This document shows positions 29,098 through 40,719 of a DNA stretch of 64,000 nt, in pieces. Below the pieces are notes generated by a model. That model searched no databases and was not told the DNA's origin. It worked only from the letters and a program-made list of their open reading frames with translations. The DNA is from Desulfomonilia bacterium. Its GTDB lineage: Bacteria; Desulfobacterota; Desulfomonilia; UBA1062. Numbering within the stretch: position 1 is the first letter of the stretch; every line of letters starts with the position of its first letter. Both the position numbers and the translations under genes were made by a program. The stretch is taken from positions 1-64,000 of the forward strand of contig DATCTV010000017.1 in NCBI GenBank assembly GCA_036567785.1, read 5' to 3'.

Positions 29098-29127
29098 TTG
29101 ACAAGACCATTAACCTGCTGATATTTT
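29098..29127 (+). promoter_or_regulatory. Promoter upstream of the cobalamin riboswitch
   Basis: A consensus -35 TTGACA (29098-29103) is followed after 18 nt by TATTTT (29122-29127). Transcription would begin just before the P1 stem of the aptamer at 29141. Confidence 0.5.
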
Positions 29128-29140
29128 ACCTTTTACCCTG

Positions 29141-29446
29141 CTGCGGATTCAAGGGAACCCGGTGAGATTCCGGGACGGGGCCCGCCGCTGTAAACGGGGA
29201 CGGAAAGGCAAAATAAAACGCCACTGTTGATGTAAAACGAGTACATTTTGTTTTACAACAGGCCGTCAGAACAAAGCAGAACGCGGAGCGACGAAATCGA
29301 GGAATGAGGCGTACTTTTAGCGTACGCCGTAATGACGAGATGATGAGCGACAAAGTTATGCGCAGTTATCACGGCCTGTACTAATGGGAAGGCGATGCCT
29401 TAATGAACATTCCGGACGATCCGTAAGTCAGAAGACCTATCCGCAG
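29141..29446 (+). promoter_or_regulatory. Cobalamin (B12) riboswitch aptamer with an internal insert
   Basis: The core AAGGGAACCCGGTGAGATTC, then GGGACGG, CCGCCGCTGTAA and GCCACTG, matches the cobalamin aptamer. The B12-box-like part AAGTCAGAAGACCTATCCGC closes it at 29425-29444. The P1 stem is perfect: CTGCGGAT (29141-29148) pairs with ATCCGCAG (29439-29446). Between CCACTG (29221) and GGGAAGGC (29386) lie about 160 nt instead of a short loop, so the aptamer is about 306 nt long, against roughly 200 normally. It precedes a BtuB-like receptor, the classic target. Confidence 0.9.
29258..29379. repeat. Structured insert inside the riboswitch, bounded by an inverted repeat
   Basis: ACAGGCCGT (29258-29266) and ACGGCCTGT (29371-29379) are a perfect 9-bp inverted repeat enclosing 104 nt. 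Inside is a hairpin, GGCGTAC (29308-29314) with GTACGCC (29322-29328). A second hairpin, TGTAAAAC with GTTTTACA, lies just before (29231-29256). The shape is that of a small non-coding palindromic unit (MITE- or REP-like). No second copy was seen in this window, so the mobile origin is inference. Confidence 0.5.
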
Positions 29447-29488
29447 GAATGAAAGGCTTTATCCGTCGTGCTCAGGATGATTGACCTT

Positions 29489-29509
29489 TTGGGGAAAGAA
29501 AAACCCCAA
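29489..29509 (+). promoter_or_regulatory. Hairpin sequestering the ribosome-binding site of the TonB receptor gene
   Basis: TTGGGG (29489-29494) pairs with CCCCAA (29504-29509) and buries the GGGGAAAG ribosome-binding region and the first base of the start codon. This is a likely expression platform for translational control by the B12 riboswitch. Confidence 0.55.
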
Positions 29510-31386
29510 TGAAGAAATTTGTTTTAACCATTTTTATATTGTTTGTCATTTTCGGAGCAGGTAAGCTCCGCGCCGATACGATTTATGTCATTTCAAATCC
29601 CGATAAGGAAGATACCGATGAAATTGCCGAAGAGCCTTCAGCCTTCGGCCAGTCCATAGATACTGAAAAACTTTCAGACAGGTATTCCACGACCGAAGAT
29701 GTACTTGACCGGGCGGCAGGTGCGAATGTCCGCTCCATGGGAGGCCTCGGCAGCTATTCCAGCATTACCATGCGCGGGGCCGGGTCGAACCAGTGCCTCG
29801 TGCTGCTGGACGGACAGCGCCTCAACTCGCCTGCAGGAGGCGGGGTCGACCTTTCAAAGCTTCCCCTTTCTCAGGTCGAAAGGATAGACATAATACGGGG
29901 CAGCGATTCCGCGCTTTACGGCGAGAGCGCCATGGGCGGGATTGTTAACATCATCACAAAAGACTCTTCTGGAAAACCCCAGGCCGATGCTGCCCTGACC
30001 TACGGCTCTTATGAGACATGGGACGGCCGCGCCGGCGCCTCGGTCCCGGTTGGCGATCATCTGGGTATAAATGCAAATATCTCCGGCAGAAAATCCGACA
30101 GTGATTTCACCTACATCAACAACAACGGCACCGAATATGATGATTCCGACGATTTCGAGGATGTCAGGCGCAATAACGCCTTCAAGGAGTTTTCATGCAT
30201 GGGAAAGGTAAATGCAAAAGGCGACATCTGGAAGGCGTCATTCTCAGGCGCAGGCAGCACATCGAGCAAACAGATTCCCGGCATTATAACCAACCCCACG
30301 CCGAATGCATGGCAGGATTTCCGGTTCAACAGCTTGAACCTCCTGGGAAGTATAAAGGCAGGAAAGCTGGACCTGGACCTTAATGCAGGAAGGGTATGGC
30401 AGCATGACAAATATAATGATCCTGACGCGCCTCTTTTTGCGGACACATTGAGCACGACATATCAGGGAAATCTCAGCGCTGCTTACCCGATAGGGCCTGT
30501 AAGGGTCAAGCCCGGGATTTCATATCTATATGAAAATATGGATGACAATATGGTCGGCGATAAGAACAGGACTACCGAATCGGGAATCCTGAGCGCCGAA
30601 TACAGCCCCTGGCAGCTCGATTTGTATGCAAGTCTGCGCTATGACAACCCTTCTTCATTTTCAGGGGAATGGCTTTACCGCCTGGGCGCCGTTTGGAATG
30701 CCGCCGATTTTGTGAAACTGAAGGCCAATGCAGGGACCGGTTACAGGGTTCCCGGATTTTATGAGCTTTACTATAACCACGGTTTTATTGTGGGCAATCC
30801 CGAGCTTACGCCTGAAAAGTCATTCAGCTTCGATATCGGGCCTGTGGTCGAATTCTGGAAGCTGTCGGTTTCTCTCAACTATTTCGATCAGCGCTACACC
30901 GACCAGATCGTATACGTTCTACAGTCAGGCCTTTACTACAAACCTTACAACGACAGCCGTTCAAAGGCTCAAGGAATCGAACTTTCCGTTGTCTTCAAGG
31001 CGTTTGACTGGTGTACGCTGAGCGGAAATTATACATATAACAGGGCAATCGACACATCCGGAGAACCCAATAAGGACGGAAATCAGATACCCGGCCAGCC
31101 CAGGAACATCGCAAATATTCAGGTGGATTTCGATTATAAAATAAAGGGAATCGGTGTTGGTGCCTGGGCCTCCTACAACTATACCGAGGGGAATTTCGTT
31201 ACATGGGCGAACACCAAGAAGCTTTCCGACCGCAACATATTCAACCTCGGGATAAAGGCGGGTCCGTACAAACATGTGAGCGTAAGCGCAGAGGTAAAGA
31301 ATCTGACCGATGAACAGGCCGTGGACTTGAGGGGGTTCCCGCTTGAAGGCAGGACGTTCTATGCGACTGCAAGTATGGTGTTTTAA
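29509..31386 (+). CDS. btuB: TonB-dependent outer-membrane receptor, BtuB-like (cobalamin)
   Basis: The 625-residue protein has a signal peptide (MKKFVLTIFILFVIFGAG), a plug domain ('ITMRGAGSNQCLVLLDGQRL', 'VERIDIIRGSDSALYGESAM') and a 22-strand-type barrel ending in TASMVF with a terminal Phe. A TonB-box-like stretch lies early in the mature part. BtuB proteins import cobalamin across the outer membrane using TonB energy. The substrate call rests mainly on the B12 riboswitch directly upstream. Two lipoprotein genes follow in the same direction, 15 and 43 nt apart. Confidence 0.88.
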   Translation: MKKFVLTIFILFVIFGAGKLRADTIYVISNPDKEDTDEIAEEPSAFGQSIDTEKLSDRYSTTEDVLDRAAGANVRSMGGLGSYSSITMRGAGSNQCLVLLDGQRLNSPAGGGVDLSKLPLSQVERIDIIRGSDSALYGESAMGGIVNIITKDSSGKPQADAALTYGSYETWDGRAGASVPVGDHLGINANISGRKSDSDFTYINNNGTEYDDSDDFEDVRRNNAFKEFSCMGKVNAKGDIWKASFSGAGSTSSKQIPGIITNPTPNAWQDFRFNSLNLLGSIKAGKLDLDLNAGRVWQHDKYNDPDAPLFADTLSTTYQGNLSAAYPIGPVRVKPGISYLYENMDDNMVGDKNRTTESGILSAEYSPWQLDLYASLRYDNPSSFSGEWLYRLGAVWNAADFVKLKANAGTGYRVPGFYELYYNHGFIVGNPELTPEKSFSFDIGPVVEFWKLSVSLNYFDQRYTDQIVYVLQSGLYYKPYNDSRSKAQGIELSVVFKAFDWCTLSGNYTYNRAIDTSGEPNKDGNQIPGQPRNIANIQVDFDYKIKGIGVGAWASYNYTEGNFVTWANTKKLSDRNIFNLGIKAGPYKHVSVSAEVKNLTDEQAVDLRGFPLEGRTFYATASMVF

Positions 31387-35162: not shown

Positions 35163-35204
35163 AAAGGGTGGCAGGCCTCGGTGCCTGCCACCCTTTATTT
35201 TTAT
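35163..35204 (+). terminator. trp attenuator hairpin
   Basis: AAAGGGTGGCAGGC (35163-35176) pairs perfectly with GCCTGCCACCCTTT (35183-35196) around CTCGGT, followed by a T-rich run. It lies between the leader peptide and trpE. The Trp-codon region itself contains GGTGGC, which can also pair with the GCCACC of the terminator arm, so alternative folds exist. Confidence 0.9.
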
Positions 35205-35219
35205 AAAAAAGGAAAAGAC

Positions 35220-36602
35220 ATGAAAAAGAACATCAGAATTGCAAGGGACATCAAGGACAGGGGAGTCGTCGTCATAAAGCGGCTTACATGCGACACGCTG
35301 ACTCCGGTCGGCGCGTACACGGCTATGGTTGGTGAAGGAGACGGCTTCCTGCTGGAATCTCTGCCGGGCTCTTTCAGCTTTCTGGGCAGGTTCGCACGGG
35401 ACAGCATAGTCCCGGTGCTAGAGCATGATGATCCTTGGTCATTGGCGCCGACGCACGGAATGCTCGAGTTTGATTCGAACTGCCTCCCGCCATTCATAGG
35501 CGGATACCTTGGATATATCGGTTACGATATGGTGCGCGGAATAGAGGTTCTGCCGAGGCCCGGGATACCTTCGGGATTTCCTGACGCCATACTCGGCAAG
35601 GTCGATACGGTTCTCATATTCGACCACCTGGCTCAGGAGATGTCGCTGCTGCATACGATCCCGGAAGGTGATGTGAAGGATGAAGATGCGATAAAACGTG
35701 CCGAGGCGGAATTTGAAAGCATAGAGGAAACGCTTTATTCGGTAAAATCCAAACCCTTTGACATACCCGGGCCCTGCCGGATAGTTGAGGCCTCGATCAG
35801 CGAAACCGGCTTCATCGATGCCGTGAAAGAGGCGAGACAGCATATACTTGACGGCGATATAATTCAGGTAGTCCTTTCAAGAAGGCTCAAGCTCGATGCG
35901 AAGTGCGAAACCTTCGATACCTATCGCAGGCTAAGGCGCATCAATCCATCAACATATATGTTCTATATGAAGATGGGAGATGTCACGCTGATCGGCTCAT
36001 CTCCCGAGGTGATGGTAGAACTCAAGGGTGATTCCATAATGACCCTGCCTATTGCCGGCACGAGACCCAGGGGTATCAGCGAGGAAGATGATGAAAGGCT
36101 TGCGGCCGAGCTTCTGGCGGATGAAAAAGAACGCGCAGAACATCTGATGCTTCTGGACCTTGCAAGAAACGATGTGGGCAGGGTGGCTCGCCCCGGAACG
36201 GTCAAGGTTGATTACCAGTATAGAATCAAACACTATTCCCATGTCATGCATATCGTTTCCTGCGTCAAAGGAAAGAAACTCGGCGACATGAGCAATGTCG
36301 ATGTGCTCAAGGCGTGTTTTCCGGCGGGTACGGTATCAGGTGCGCCGAAGGTAAGGGCCATGGAGATAATTGACGAACTCGAAGGCATGTGCCGGGGACC
36401 GTATGCAGGTGCGGTTGGCTATCTTTCCTATAACGGCAACATGGATACTGGAATCACGATTCGGACGATATTTGTCAAAAACGGCGAATATTATCTTCAG
36501 GCAGGTGCAGGTATAGTCTGGGATTCGGTGCCTGAAAAAGAGCTCAGAGAGATTGAAAACAAGCTGCGCGCATTGAGCACGGCGCTAGGAGGCATATCAT
36601 GA
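35220..36602 (+). CDS. trpE: Anthranilate synthase component I
   Basis: The 460-residue protein holds the chorismate-binding core ('LPIAGTRPRGISEEDDERL', 'LLDLARNDVGRVARPG', 'FPAGTVSGAPKVRAMEII') and the N-terminal 'LLES' motif (DGFLLES) used for feedback inhibition by tryptophan. It makes anthranilate from chorismate with ammonia supplied by TrpG. The start at 35220 has GGAAAAG upstream; an in-frame GTG at 35181 lies within the attenuator stem. It overlaps trpG by 4 nt. Confidence 0.96.
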   Translation: MKKNIRIARDIKDRGVVVIKRLTCDTLTPVGAYTAMVGEGDGFLLESLPGSFSFLGRFARDSIVPVLEHDDPWSLAPTHGMLEFDSNCLPPFIGGYLGYIGYDMVRGIEVLPRPGIPSGFPDAILGKVDTVLIFDHLAQEMSLLHTIPEGDVKDEDAIKRAEAEFESIEETLYSVKSKPFDIPGPCRIVEASISETGFIDAVKEARQHILDGDIIQVVLSRRLKLDAKCETFDTYRRLRRINPSTYMFYMKMGDVTLIGSSPEVMVELKGDSIMTLPIAGTRPRGISEEDDERLAAELLADEKERAEHLMLLDLARNDVGRVARPGTVKVDYQYRIKHYSHVMHIVSCVKGKKLGDMSNVDVLKACFPAGTVSGAPKVRAMEIIDELEGMCRGPYAGAVGYLSYNGNMDTGITIRTIFVKNGEYYLQAGAGIVWDSVPEKELREIENKLRALSTALGGIS

Positions 36603-37180
36603 TATTGATGATTGACAACTTTGATTCGTTTACATTCAACATTGTACAGGCTGCGGCAACCTTTGGCGAAGAAATTGTCGTAAGGCGTAACAATGCGGTT
36701 AGCATTGCAGGTATAAGAGAGATGAATCCCCTGGGCATTATCATTTCTCCCGGCCCCGGTGCGCCGGAATCAGCCGGAATTTCACTCGATGTCATTCGCA
36801 GCTTTTACAGGGACATCCCGATTTTCGGGGTATGCCTGGGGCATCAGTGCATATATGAGGCATTCGGCGGACGAATCATTCATGCAAAAAGCGTTATGCA
36901 CGGCAAGCTCTCGACGATCATGCATGACGGTACAGGGCTTTTTGAAGGTCTGCCGCAAACATTCAGGGCGGTGAGATACCATTCTCTTGCAGGGGATACC
37001 TCGACTCTTCCATCTGAACTTCGGGTGTGCGCCCTGTCGGATGACGGCGAGATCATGGGCATTGCACACAGAAATTATCCGGTTTACGGTGTGCAGTTTC
37101 ATCCTGAATCGATTGCAACGGAAAAGGGCGTCGACATAATAAGGCGCTTTACGGAAACGACACACAGGAGGGATTCATGA
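36599..37180 (+). CDS. trpG: Anthranilate synthase component II (glutamine amidotransferase)
   Basis: The 193-residue class I amidotransferase has the catalytic Cys in FGVCLGHQ and the His-Glu pair in FHPESIAT. It hydrolyses glutamine to feed ammonia to TrpE; such proteins often also serve folate synthesis (PabA). AGGAGG precedes the ATG, which overlaps the trpE stop. Unlike in E. coli, it is not fused to trpD. Confidence 0.95.
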   Translation: MILMIDNFDSFTFNIVQAAATFGEEIVVRRNNAVSIAGIREMNPLGIIISPGPGAPESAGISLDVIRSFYRDIPIFGVCLGHQCIYEAFGGRIIHAKSVMHGKLSTIMHDGTGLFEGLPQTFRAVRYHSLAGDTSTLPSELRVCALSDDGEIMGIAHRNYPVYGVQFHPESIATEKGVDIIRRFTETTHRRDS

Positions 37181-38169
37181 AAGACTACATCGAGAAGCTG
37201 CTGTCAGGGAAAGACCTGAGTGAAGATGAGATCGAAACCGCATTCGAACAGATAATGACAGGAAAGGCCGATGATATGGAAATCGCCGCATTTCTTGTGG
37301 CCTTGCGTGCAAAGGCCGAGAGTCCCGAGGAGATAGCGGGTGCCGCCAGGGTGATGCGTTCAAAGGTCAACAGGGTCAATGTCGGAACAGATGTTATCGA
37401 TACATGCGGAACCGGCGGCGACGGCGCAAGGACTTTCAACATATCTACAGCCGTGGCTTTTGTCCTTGCGGGTGCAGGGTATAAGGTGGCCAAACACGGC
37501 AACCGTTCGGTAAGTTCGTCGTCGGGCAGTGCTGACTGTCTTGAGGCGCTTGGCGTTCCTATCAACCTGGGACCGGAAGATGCTGCAAAGGCCATAAGCG
37601 AGAAAGGTTTTGCGTTCCTGTTTGCGCCCAACTACCACCCGAGCATGAAATACGCCATGCCTGCCAGAAAAAAACTGGGCATACGGACAATATTCAACGT
37701 GCTCGGGCCGCTTACAAACCCGGCATTTGCATCGCATCAGGTTATAGGGGTGTTTTCCAAAGGGCTTGTAACGCCTATTGCCGATGTCCTTAAGATGCTC
37801 GGTTTAAAAGCAGCGATGGTGGTTAACAGCGGCATGGATGAGGTATCGATTTCAGGGCCGACCGATTATGCGCTGCTGAAGGGAGGAGAAGTCATTACAG
37901 GGACAGTCACCCCTGAAGACGCCGGGGTTGCAAGATCATCTATAGATGCCCTTGTCGTAAAAAATGCAGCCGAGTCTGCTAAAATAATTGAAGATGTGTT
38001 TGCAGGAAAAGTTGACGGGCCATGCCTCGATGCGGTTCTGATAAATTCGGCGGCGGCCTTTATCGTGCTTGATGAGGCCCGTGATTTCAGAGAAGGAGTG
38101 GACAAGGCAGGTGTTGTTATAAAAGAGGGTCTGGCATTTAAGGCTCTTAACAGGGCAAGGGGCCATTAG
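37177..38169 (+). CDS. trpD: Anthranilate phosphoribosyltransferase
   Basis: The 330-residue protein has DTCGTGGDGARTFNIST (PRPP-binding Gly loop), 'KHGNRSVSSSSGSAD' and 'RTIFNVLGPLTNPA', all TrpD hallmarks. It joins anthranilate to PRPP. It overlaps the trpG stop by 4 nt and has AGGAGG upstream. Confidence 0.96.
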   Translation: MKDYIEKLLSGKDLSEDEIETAFEQIMTGKADDMEIAAFLVALRAKAESPEEIAGAARVMRSKVNRVNVGTDVIDTCGTGGDGARTFNISTAVAFVLAGAGYKVAKHGNRSVSSSSGSADCLEALGVPINLGPEDAAKAISEKGFAFLFAPNYHPSMKYAMPARKKLGIRTIFNVLGPLTNPAFASHQVIGVFSKGLVTPIADVLKMLGLKAAMVVNSGMDEVSISGPTDYALLKGGEVITGTVTPEDAGVARSSIDALVVKNAAESAKIIEDVFAGKVDGPCLDAVLINSAAAFIVLDEARDFREGVDKAGVVIKEGLAFKALNRARGH

Positions 38170-38204
38170 TTGCGACCCATGCTTGAGAAGGGAATGGGGT
38201 TCGG

Positions 38205-38951
38205 ATGGATTTTTTAAAAAAAATGTACGGGCTTTCCAGGAAGCGGGCTGAAGCGCTTGATGATATCCTTGATATCCGGGATGTCTTTCCCATACGTCCT
38301 TTCGGGGAAGCCTTGATAAAAAAGGGCATGTCGGTGATAGCAGAAGTCAAGTATGCAACCCCGGCAGAAGGCGACCTCGGGCTTATGGAAAAGCCGGAAG
38401 AACTTGCCTTGAAATATGAAAGGGCAGGAGCCTCGGCGATATCATGCCTTACCGAACCTGAATTCTTCAAAGGCAGCCTCGATTATTTAAGACGGATCAG
38501 AATGCGCTCGACTCTGCCTCTCATGATGAAAGATTTCATAACTGACAAGCGTCAGATAATAGCCGGTAGAATGATGGGGGCGGATGCTTATCTGCTGATA
38601 TCTGAAATGCTCACGCTTGATGAACTGAAGACTCTCCATGCCTTTGGAAAAAACCTGGGGATGGAAGCTCTTGTCGAGGTGCATGGCGAAGAGGGTCTTG
38701 AAAAAGCGCTCTTTATCGATGCCGGAATCATGGGCGTCAACTGCAGGAACCTTTCCACACTGAAACTCGATTTGAATGTCCATGAAAAGATGTCCATGCT
38801 GCTTCCTGCAGGCTGCATAAAGGTGGCCGAAAGCGGCATAAGCACCTCTGCAAGAATTAAAGAACTCGGCGGCCTGGGTTATGATGCGGCGCTTATCGGC
38901 CGGGCCATGGCGAATGATTCGTCCATGAAGGAAGTGCTCCCATGTGGGTGA
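38205..38951 (+). CDS. trpC: Indole-3-glycerol phosphate synthase (divergent)
   Basis: The 248-residue TIM-barrel protein has 'SVIAEVKYATPAEGDLG', 'LPLMMKDFITDKRQI' (catalytic Lys in KDF) and 'KVAESGIS'. The second motif is usually KraSPSkG, and the later GINNRNL is GVNCRNL here, so it is a divergent member, but the catalytic Lys/Glu frame is kept. It closes the indole ring by decarboxylation. It starts 35 nt after trpD and overlaps trpF by 10 nt. Confidence 0.9.
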   Translation: MDFLKKMYGLSRKRAEALDDILDIRDVFPIRPFGEALIKKGMSVIAEVKYATPAEGDLGLMEKPEELALKYERAGASAISCLTEPEFFKGSLDYLRRIRMRSTLPLMMKDFITDKRQIIAGRMMGADAYLLISEMLTLDELKTLHAFGKNLGMEALVEVHGEEGLEKALFIDAGIMGVNCRNLSTLKLDLNVHEKMSMLLPAGCIKVAESGISTSARIKELGGLGYDAALIGRAMANDSSMKEVLPCG

Positions 38952-39571
38952 AGATATGCGGACTTACGAGAAGGGATGACGCAATGGCCGCCGTCGGAAT
39001 GGGAGCGGATGCCGTTGGATTTGTCCTGACAAAGATGAGCAGGAAGTACGCCGACCCGGCAGAAGTTTCCGGGTGGGTGGCCGAAATCAGAGGTGTCGAG
39101 AAGGTCGGAGTCTTTTATGACGAACGTCCGCAGCAGATAATGGATATTGCCGCAAAACTCGGGCTTGACACCATACAGATCCATTCAACGGTCACGGAAG
39201 AATACATATCTCTATCGAAGAAATACAGGATCATCGCGGCGATAAAGGATGCAGGTTCGCTTCATTATAAAAACGAAAGACCTGATACAGGAGAGGTTCT
39301 TATGGGACTTTCCCGTAAGGAATATGGTGCGAAAACGTACATGCCGGTGCGGATTCTGATCGACCCCAGCATGGGCTCTGGTATCAGGGCCGAATGGCGG
39401 ACATATCCTTTTCCCTTCCTGCTGGCGGGCGGCTTGTCGCCGGATAATGTCCGGGAGGCGATTTTGAAGGCCGGACCTGCCGGTGTGGATGTGAGTTCTG
39501 GAGTTGAAATTTCACCGGGGATAAAAGACGTATCTCTTATCGAAAAATTCATTCTGGAGGCAAGATCATGA
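38942..39571 (+). CDS. trpF: Phosphoribosylanthranilate isomerase
   Basis: The 209-residue protein starts [14 protein letters not shown], with the catalytic Cys in KICGLT. Near the end come '[15 protein letters not shown]' and 'GVDVSSGVE', the phosphate-binding and final strand motifs with the catalytic Asp. It carries out the Amadori step between TrpD and TrpC. Its start overlaps trpC, and its end overlaps trpB (ATGA). Confidence 0.95.
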
Positions 39572-40719
39572 AAGGCTATTATGGAGAATTCGGGGGCCAG
39601 TATGTACCGGAAACTTTGATACCGGCGCTGGTTGAGCTTGAGGATGCGGTTGAGAAGAATTTTTCGGACATGAGCTTCTGGGCCGAATTCGACGATCTCA
39701 TGAGGAATTATGTCGGCAGGCCGTCGCCGCTTACTTTTGCAGGAAGACTTTCTGCACATTACGGCATCGATGTGTGGCTCAAGAGAGAAGACCTCAACCA
39801 CACCGGTTCGCATAAGATAAATAATGCAATTGGTCAGATACTGCTGGCCGGGAGAATGGGAAAGAGGCGCGTAATAGCCGAGACCGGGGCAGGGCAGCAT
39901 GGCGTTGCTACGGCCACGGTATGCGCGCTGTTCGGGCTCGAATGCGCTGTCTATATGGGCACAGAAGACATAAAGCGCCAGAAGATGAATGTAGAGCGCA
40001 TGAGGCTTCTGGGTACCGAGGTTGTGCCAGTCAGCGCCGGAACCGCGACCCTCAAGGATGCGACAAGCGAGGCCATACGCGACTGGGTGACGAATGTTGA
40101 CGATACCTATTATCTGATAGGTTCGGTCATAGGCCCGCATCCGTATCCGATGATGGTGAGAAGATTCCAGGCAATCATAGGCGACGAGGCGAGGGCGCAG
40201 ATTCTTGAAAAAACGGGAAAACTGCCCGATGCAGTCATTGCATGCGTCGGAGGCGGCAGCAATGCAATAGGAATATTTGCAGGCTTTGTTGATGATCCGG
40301 TGGAGCTGATAGGCGTTGAAGCCTACGGCGATGGCGATAGGAAGCACGGGGCAAGCATAAACTTCGGCACGCCTGGGGTGCTTCACGGCGCCAGGTTTTT
40401 TCTCCTGCAGGATGATGACGGACAGGTTCTGGATACGCATTCGATTGCAGCGGGCCTTGATTATCCGGGCGCAGGGCCTGAGCATTGCTTTCTTTCGGAG
40501 AGCAAAAGGGCCAATTATATGCTTGTCACGGATAAGGAGGCGCTTGAAGGCTTCAGCATACTTGGGAGGCTCGAAGGCATCCTGCCCGCGCTGGAAAGTT
40601 CGCATGCAATAGCTTATCTTCAGAAATACGCGGCAGACAACAAGGGAAAGACGGTGATAGTCAACCTCTCGGGCAGGGGCGACAAGGACCTGCATACGGT
40701 TCTGGAGGCAGGTATATGA
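39568..40719 (+). CDS. trpB: Tryptophan synthase beta chain
   Basis: The 383-residue PLP enzyme has [13 protein letters not shown] at the start, the cofactor Lys in [12 protein letters not shown], '[10 protein letters not shown]' and the phosphate loop [10 protein letters not shown]. It condenses indole with serine to give tryptophan. The length and motifs fit the standard TrpB1 type that pairs with TrpA. GGAGG precedes the ATG. Confidence 0.97.

Follow-up and report, generated by a model that had tools for sequence, protein, structure and literature searches.

The window, a stretch of 64,000 nucleotides from a Desulfomonilia bacterium, contains a cobalamin riboswitch aptamer at 29128-29458 (+), which cmscan matched to RF00174 at 69.9 bits (E 3.4e-15) against a curated threshold of 31.5, with all 189 model positions (1-189) aligned. 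This is the sole RF00174 match in the 3.96-Mb genome. The P1 strands CTGCGGAT at 29141-29148 (+) and ATCCGCAG at 29439-29446 (+) are perfectly complementary over 8 bp, and the core GGGAACCCGGUG...CCGGG and a B12-box-like part AGUCAGAAGACC are both present. These findings confirm an earlier note on this DNA, which had described a cobalamin riboswitch that carries a structured insert and is otherwise complete. In its full-length match, its P1, core and B12-box-like part and the receptor gene downstream, the aptamer resembles other members of RF00174; the difference lies in a single hairpin loop, where 151 nt remain unaligned and the model counts only 5 positions.

The next gene after the riboswitch is an open frame at 29509-31386 (+) that encodes a 625-aa BtuB-like TonB-dependent receptor with Pfam Plug and TonB beta-barrel domains, whose top NCBIfam match, TIGR01779 (TonB-B12), scored 176.8 bits and thus under the cut-off of 599.7. 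Directly upstream of the riboswitch, a consensus scan revealed a promoter-like site at 29098-29127 (+; TTGACA, 18 nt, TATTTT) with 10 of 12 consensus matches and a TG preceding the second hexamer. With three such sites found against 1.4 expected in shuffles, its role as the promoter of the riboswitch leader is suggestive only. Downstream of the receptor region, we also observed a nearly complete trp cluster (trpE, trpG, trpD, trpC, trpF and a trpB-like gene) at 35181-40719.

The insert lies in the loop of the peripheral CCACUG...GGGAAGG hairpin, whose arms at 29220-29229 (+; GCC-A-CUGUUG) and 29382-29393 (+; UAAUGG-GAA-GGC) pair in the Rfam alignment and which is interrupted by 29258-29379. 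The segment 29219-29396 folded at -61 kcal/mol, compared with -42.1 +/- 3.7 for shuffles (z -5.2), and the predicted fold consists of a first hairpin at 29231-29257 (+) with an 11-bp stem (UGUAAAACGAG/UUUGUUUUACA), followed by a long imperfect hairpin at 29258-29379 (+). The latter is 122 bp long and is framed, exactly as had been noted before, by a 9-bp inverted repeat, ACAGGCCGT at 29258-29266 (+) and ACGGCCTGT at 29371-29379 (+). Both of the hairpins previously placed in the insert do fold, but the first adjoins the repeat on its left and lies outside it. Only 3 of the 24 own-genome copies compared have such a hairpin next to their left end, and we therefore rejected 29231-29257 as a part of the repeat; it belongs to the riboswitch, and the repeat comprises 29258-29379 only. 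An Rfam scan of the insert for a known RNA family returned only chance-level matches.

A family of dispersed palindromes

A BLAST-type search of the source genome with 29258-29379 detected 31 further matches at E < 1e-4, and a consensus query built from the copies detected approximately 34 in this 97% complete assembly (G000), from which copies were collected region by region. The relative G008 contained another eight matches. Copies start with ACAGGGCGT and finish with ACGCCCTGT, the family forms of the two terminal repeats, within unrelated flanks, and complete copies that lack a nested module (described below) nearly all measure 118-124 bp. Own-genome copies were mostly 70-85% identical to the window copy, and the copies aligned ranged from 66% to 85%. 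Since the window copy is at most 85% identical to any other aligned copy, its insertion was probably not recent. Beyond the source genome, we detected no match in 22 other same-family genomes besides G008, copies with up to 83% identity in G057 of another family, and related copies on about 100 contigs of other, mostly deltaproteobacterial, subsurface genomes, indicating a patchy distribution.

Placement of the copies was largely intergenic, with 1 of 111 copies inside a long ORF by simple ORF calls. Copies between tandem genes lay in sense (31) and antisense (40) orientation without bias, so that a role at the mRNA level is not indicated. In approximately half of the own-genome copies, an opposite-strand gene has its stop codon within about 12 nt of the repeat's right end, whereas the left end was that near the stop of a same-strand gene in 0 of 20; this polar placement was noted at L008-L011, L013, L014 and L017-L021. 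The genes that end beside copies are ordinary, including purH and genes for a kup-type transporter, a class II tRNA synthetase and an enoyl-CoA hydratase. The riboswitch copy departs from this stop-codon-adjacent placement, and at the other loci scanned no copy overlapped an Rfam family. One other genome has copies as neighbors of riboswitches: one precedes a cobalamin riboswitch by about 26 nt (L136, 3613-3793 and 3820-3941), and another follows a SAM riboswitch at a distance of about 48 nt (L174, 4944-5059 and 5108-5229).

An alignment of 29 complete copies (125 columns) yielded a consensus of one 33-bp hairpin. Standard pairs occupied 97.4% of cells, compared with 85.6% after shuffling, and both-side changes occurred in 23 of the 33 pairs and in 124 cells, compared with 31.2 in shuffles (0 of 500 reached 124). 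Kinship of the copies inflates this shuffle control; sliding the partner by one to three columns, a control that retains relatedness, lowered pairing to only 23-44%. Internal loops are mostly tandem G-A/G-A pairs. On the strand shown, G-U outnumbered A-C 30 to 9, which suggests that folding takes place on one strand, either in RNA or in single-stranded DNA. Only 1 of 33 positions is unpaired in the window copy, and two of its compensated pairs, 29263/29374 (C-G) and 29281/29356 (A-U), are shared with no other copy. Private compensated pairs also occur in several intergenic copies, so those of the window copy alone are no proof of selection on the riboswitch.

Shared flanks longer than 3 nt, as expected of a target duplication, were absent among 35 copies, and flank matches of at least 2 nt occurred in 8 of these 35, compared with 5.3 in shuffles. 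The edges are biased toward T on the left (24 of 35) and A on the right (22 of 35). TA duplications are made by IS630/Tc1-type enzymes, and a possible TA target duplication of this kind is compatible with the edge bias. Among 33 matches to the repeat's ends, we detected no full-length insertion sequence; 32 lay in short palindromic units, the exception lay in DNA that reads as coding, and no transposase gene was seen with such a match at its border. The Y1_Tnp (RAYT/IS200) genes found in G000, among them RAYT genes at C2 and C55, were rejected as carriers, as the stretches read around them showed no flanking repeat. With neither a long target duplication nor an autonomous parent or flanked transposase, we infer from dispersal that the repeat is mobile or once-mobile. 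The palindromic ends, the missing long target duplications and the signs that one strand is the folded one weakly point to mobilization in trans by an enzyme that works on the hairpin formed by a single DNA strand, for example a Y1/HuH transposase, although the lack of flanking repeats at the Y1 genes of G000 counts against it.

Riboswitches of relatives and predicted effect on the aptamer

Riboswitches of the same family were much shorter than that in the window. The 20 full-length RF00174 matches from 19 other family genomes span 161-191 nt, compared with 331 nt in the window, and are too short (at most 191 nt) to hold a 122-bp repeat; in those whose CCACTG...GGGAAGG hairpin was read, it spans about 22-34 nt. 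Because the source genus is represented by one genome in our comparison set, these data place the absence of the insert at the family level. Over 120 full-length RF00174 matches, the median length was 187 nt and the 95th percentile 220 nt. The riboswitch of G057 (L119) has a plain loop, even though this genome carries the repeat elsewhere.

Long loops of about 100 nt occur in the same peripheral hairpin in G033 (L112), G045 (L113) and G054 (L114). We considered the G033 and G054 inserts as further dispersed repeats and rejected both, as a search of their own genomes found no second copy of either. These single-copy extensions suggest that the loop is generally tolerant. The G045 riboswitch contains TTAGGG-like repeats in two loops. 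Among the long-loop riboswitches compared, only that in the window holds a dispersed repeat.

To describe the effect of the insert on the aptamer, we scored 32 aptamer pairs, leaving out 12 of 44 Rfam-alignment pairs that were non-standard and mostly in the variable part. Mean pair probability, a thermodynamic prediction that leaves aside ligand and tertiary contacts, was 0.71 with the insert removed in silico and 0.54 with the native insert. Shuffled inserts lowered it to 0.39 +/- 0.07 and random window pieces to 0.35, and 0 of 200 in either set reached the native value; other members of the repeat family gave 0.52. These predictions suggest that the repeat interferes with its surroundings less than most sequences of 122 nt would. 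The decrease from 0.71 to 0.54 makes some loss of riboswitch function possible.

Origin of the insert

The insert is a copy of a dispersed family with fixed ends, the riboswitches of relatives lack it, and its single hairpin has been kept by compensatory changes. In agreement with the earlier note, which had offered as one explanation a mobile palindrome that entered a loop able to tolerate it, the dispersed copies and the 20 family riboswitches without the insert favor this origin, and the contrary outcome that it had named, an insert in all relatives with no copies elsewhere, did not occur. We therefore consider it very likely that a dispersed, REP/MITE-like 122-bp palindrome inserted into the peripheral hairpin of the genome's sole cobalamin riboswitch, at its apical loop, and was tolerated there. 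The existing CCACUG...GGGAAGG hairpin loop, which may have read ...TTTTACA|ACTAATGG when uninterrupted, would have received the copy, and in the leader RNA the repeat would fold back on itself and form a three-way junction with the adjoining hairpin. From the fold predictions, we infer that the ligand-binding core and P1 are left free and that the riboswitch still controls the BtuB-like receptor. Autonomous folding may be why the repeat was tolerated in this variable loop.

Growth of the insert in place, as an ancestral or lineage-specific peripheral domain, would parallel what is seen in G033 and G054, where this hairpin has long single-copy extensions, and the long loops in G045. Such an origin is nevertheless highly improbable, since the source genome holds about 34 dispersed relatives of the insert and the 20 same-family riboswitches lack it. 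It is also doubtful that the insertion killed the riboswitch and left a decaying relic in a constitutive leader. Its 69.9 bits are the lowest among the family's full-length matches (others, 76.1-115.4), and the predicted aptamer pair probability is reduced; however, the aptamer exceeds the Rfam threshold with a margin, the receptor gene is open, and the core, P1 and B12-box-like part are conserved despite a repeat copy that has diverged.

The earlier note had offered an added regulatory domain as its other option. In this alternative the repeat was co-opted, its hairpin adding a second input to B12 control in the form of protein binding, an RNase site or a transcriptional pause. The strongly conserved hairpin with tandem G-A loops, the window copy's two private compensated pairs and the genome with copies beside cobalamin and SAM riboswitches are all consistent with such a role. 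We nevertheless regard it as unlikely, considering that private compensated pairs are found in intergenic copies too, that gene orientation shows no bias elsewhere and that no other copy overlapped an Rfam family among the loci scanned. It is quite unlikely that the hairpin, in which short helices alternate regularly with tandem G-A pairs, is bound by a cellular protein or by the repeat's own transposase and was recruited in this leader so that the B12 switch also responds to that factor. A tolerated insertion, as we prefer, would constitute a natural domain-insertion experiment showing which loop of a cobalamin aptamer accommodates foreign sequence of this size. It suggests that structured RNAs can take up mobile palindromes capable of folding on their own, which is one possible route to peripheral RNA domains.

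Comparison with known repeats

Integron attC sites carry R''/R' boxes of the forms RYYYAAC and GTTRRRY and occur in cassette arrays. We rejected the repeat as an attC site, as only AAC/GTT is in common and single copies lie behind ordinary genes (purH, a kup-type transporter gene). REP elements are 20-40 bp long and lie close (<20 bp) to gene 3' ends (PMC3733652), and REP elements and REPINs with RAYT transposases include GTAG and CGTC families (PMC2817692, PMC3733652). The repeat resembles them as a dispersed extragenic palindrome with many copies per genome, compensatory changes and no long target duplication, and it likewise lies near gene 3' ends. It differs in its size of 122 bp with 9-bp ends and in having ACAGGGCGT/ACGCCCTGT at its ends rather than an unpaired GTAG or CGTC tag. 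GACG, the reverse of CGTC, occurs in the core of most but not all copies, internal to the hairpin. REPs nested in longer palindromes have been reported, as for GTAG-15 of A. variabilis (PMC2817692, PMC3733652). A further difference is that no RAYT flanked by the repeat was found in the stretches read of the 97% complete G000; for CGTC REPs, no such gene is known either.

Like bacterial MITEs (reviewed in PMC10969869), the repeat is small, non-coding and dispersed in many copies (about 34 other places), with 9-bp TIRs, and it shares a length of 100-150 bp and a stable RNA fold with MITEs and with Rickettsia palindromic elements (RPEs). It differs in that we found no target duplication beyond the TA-like edge bias and no parental insertion sequence; unlike RPEs, which often lie in frame inside genes, it was inside a long ORF in a single copy of the 111. 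As the REP rules on size and tag do not fit and, of the MITE traits, a TA duplication is only possible and no parent was detected, we filed the repeat, by placement and architecture, as a REP/MITE-like palindrome.

The nearest case to a repeat inside a riboswitch is the pneumococcal trp operon, upstream of which a BOX element lies between two T-box riboswitches (PMC3049150). Both loci have a dispersed repeat in a riboswitch-controlled leader that forms a composite RNA, but BOX lies between two complete T-boxes and the window repeat within the peripheral loop of one aptamer. Palindromic repeats in leaders are already known, and our search of the open literature for repeats inside aptamers, which was not exhaustive, returned only this case and MITE reviews and no report of one inside an aptamer. 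We likewise found no Rfam match to, or description of, a repeat family with a tandem G-A loop hairpin and an end next to stop codons.

In some copies (L007, L012, L077, L078 and L084), one arm or the other holds a nested module, CAAATTTTTGC...GCCCGAATCAAAG, approximately 70 nt long, and one locus, L122 (C61:4627), retains the outer ends and the module with the core missing, so that these repeats look modular. A second type of palindrome, with CCGGTTTATATTCAAGA...CTTGAATAGAAACCGG-like outer arms, occurs at L121, at L124 and to the right of the L007 copy, and has the central hairpin GCATACTTTAACGTATG in common with the repeat. Other families of the phylum (G049, G050, G051 and G058; L054-L057, L060-L062, L065 and L068) contain palindromes with the same 40-nt center, GAGGAATGAGGCGTAC...GTACGCCGCAATGACGA, and different outer arms, for example GTAAAAAGT...ACTTTTTACGAAGCC.
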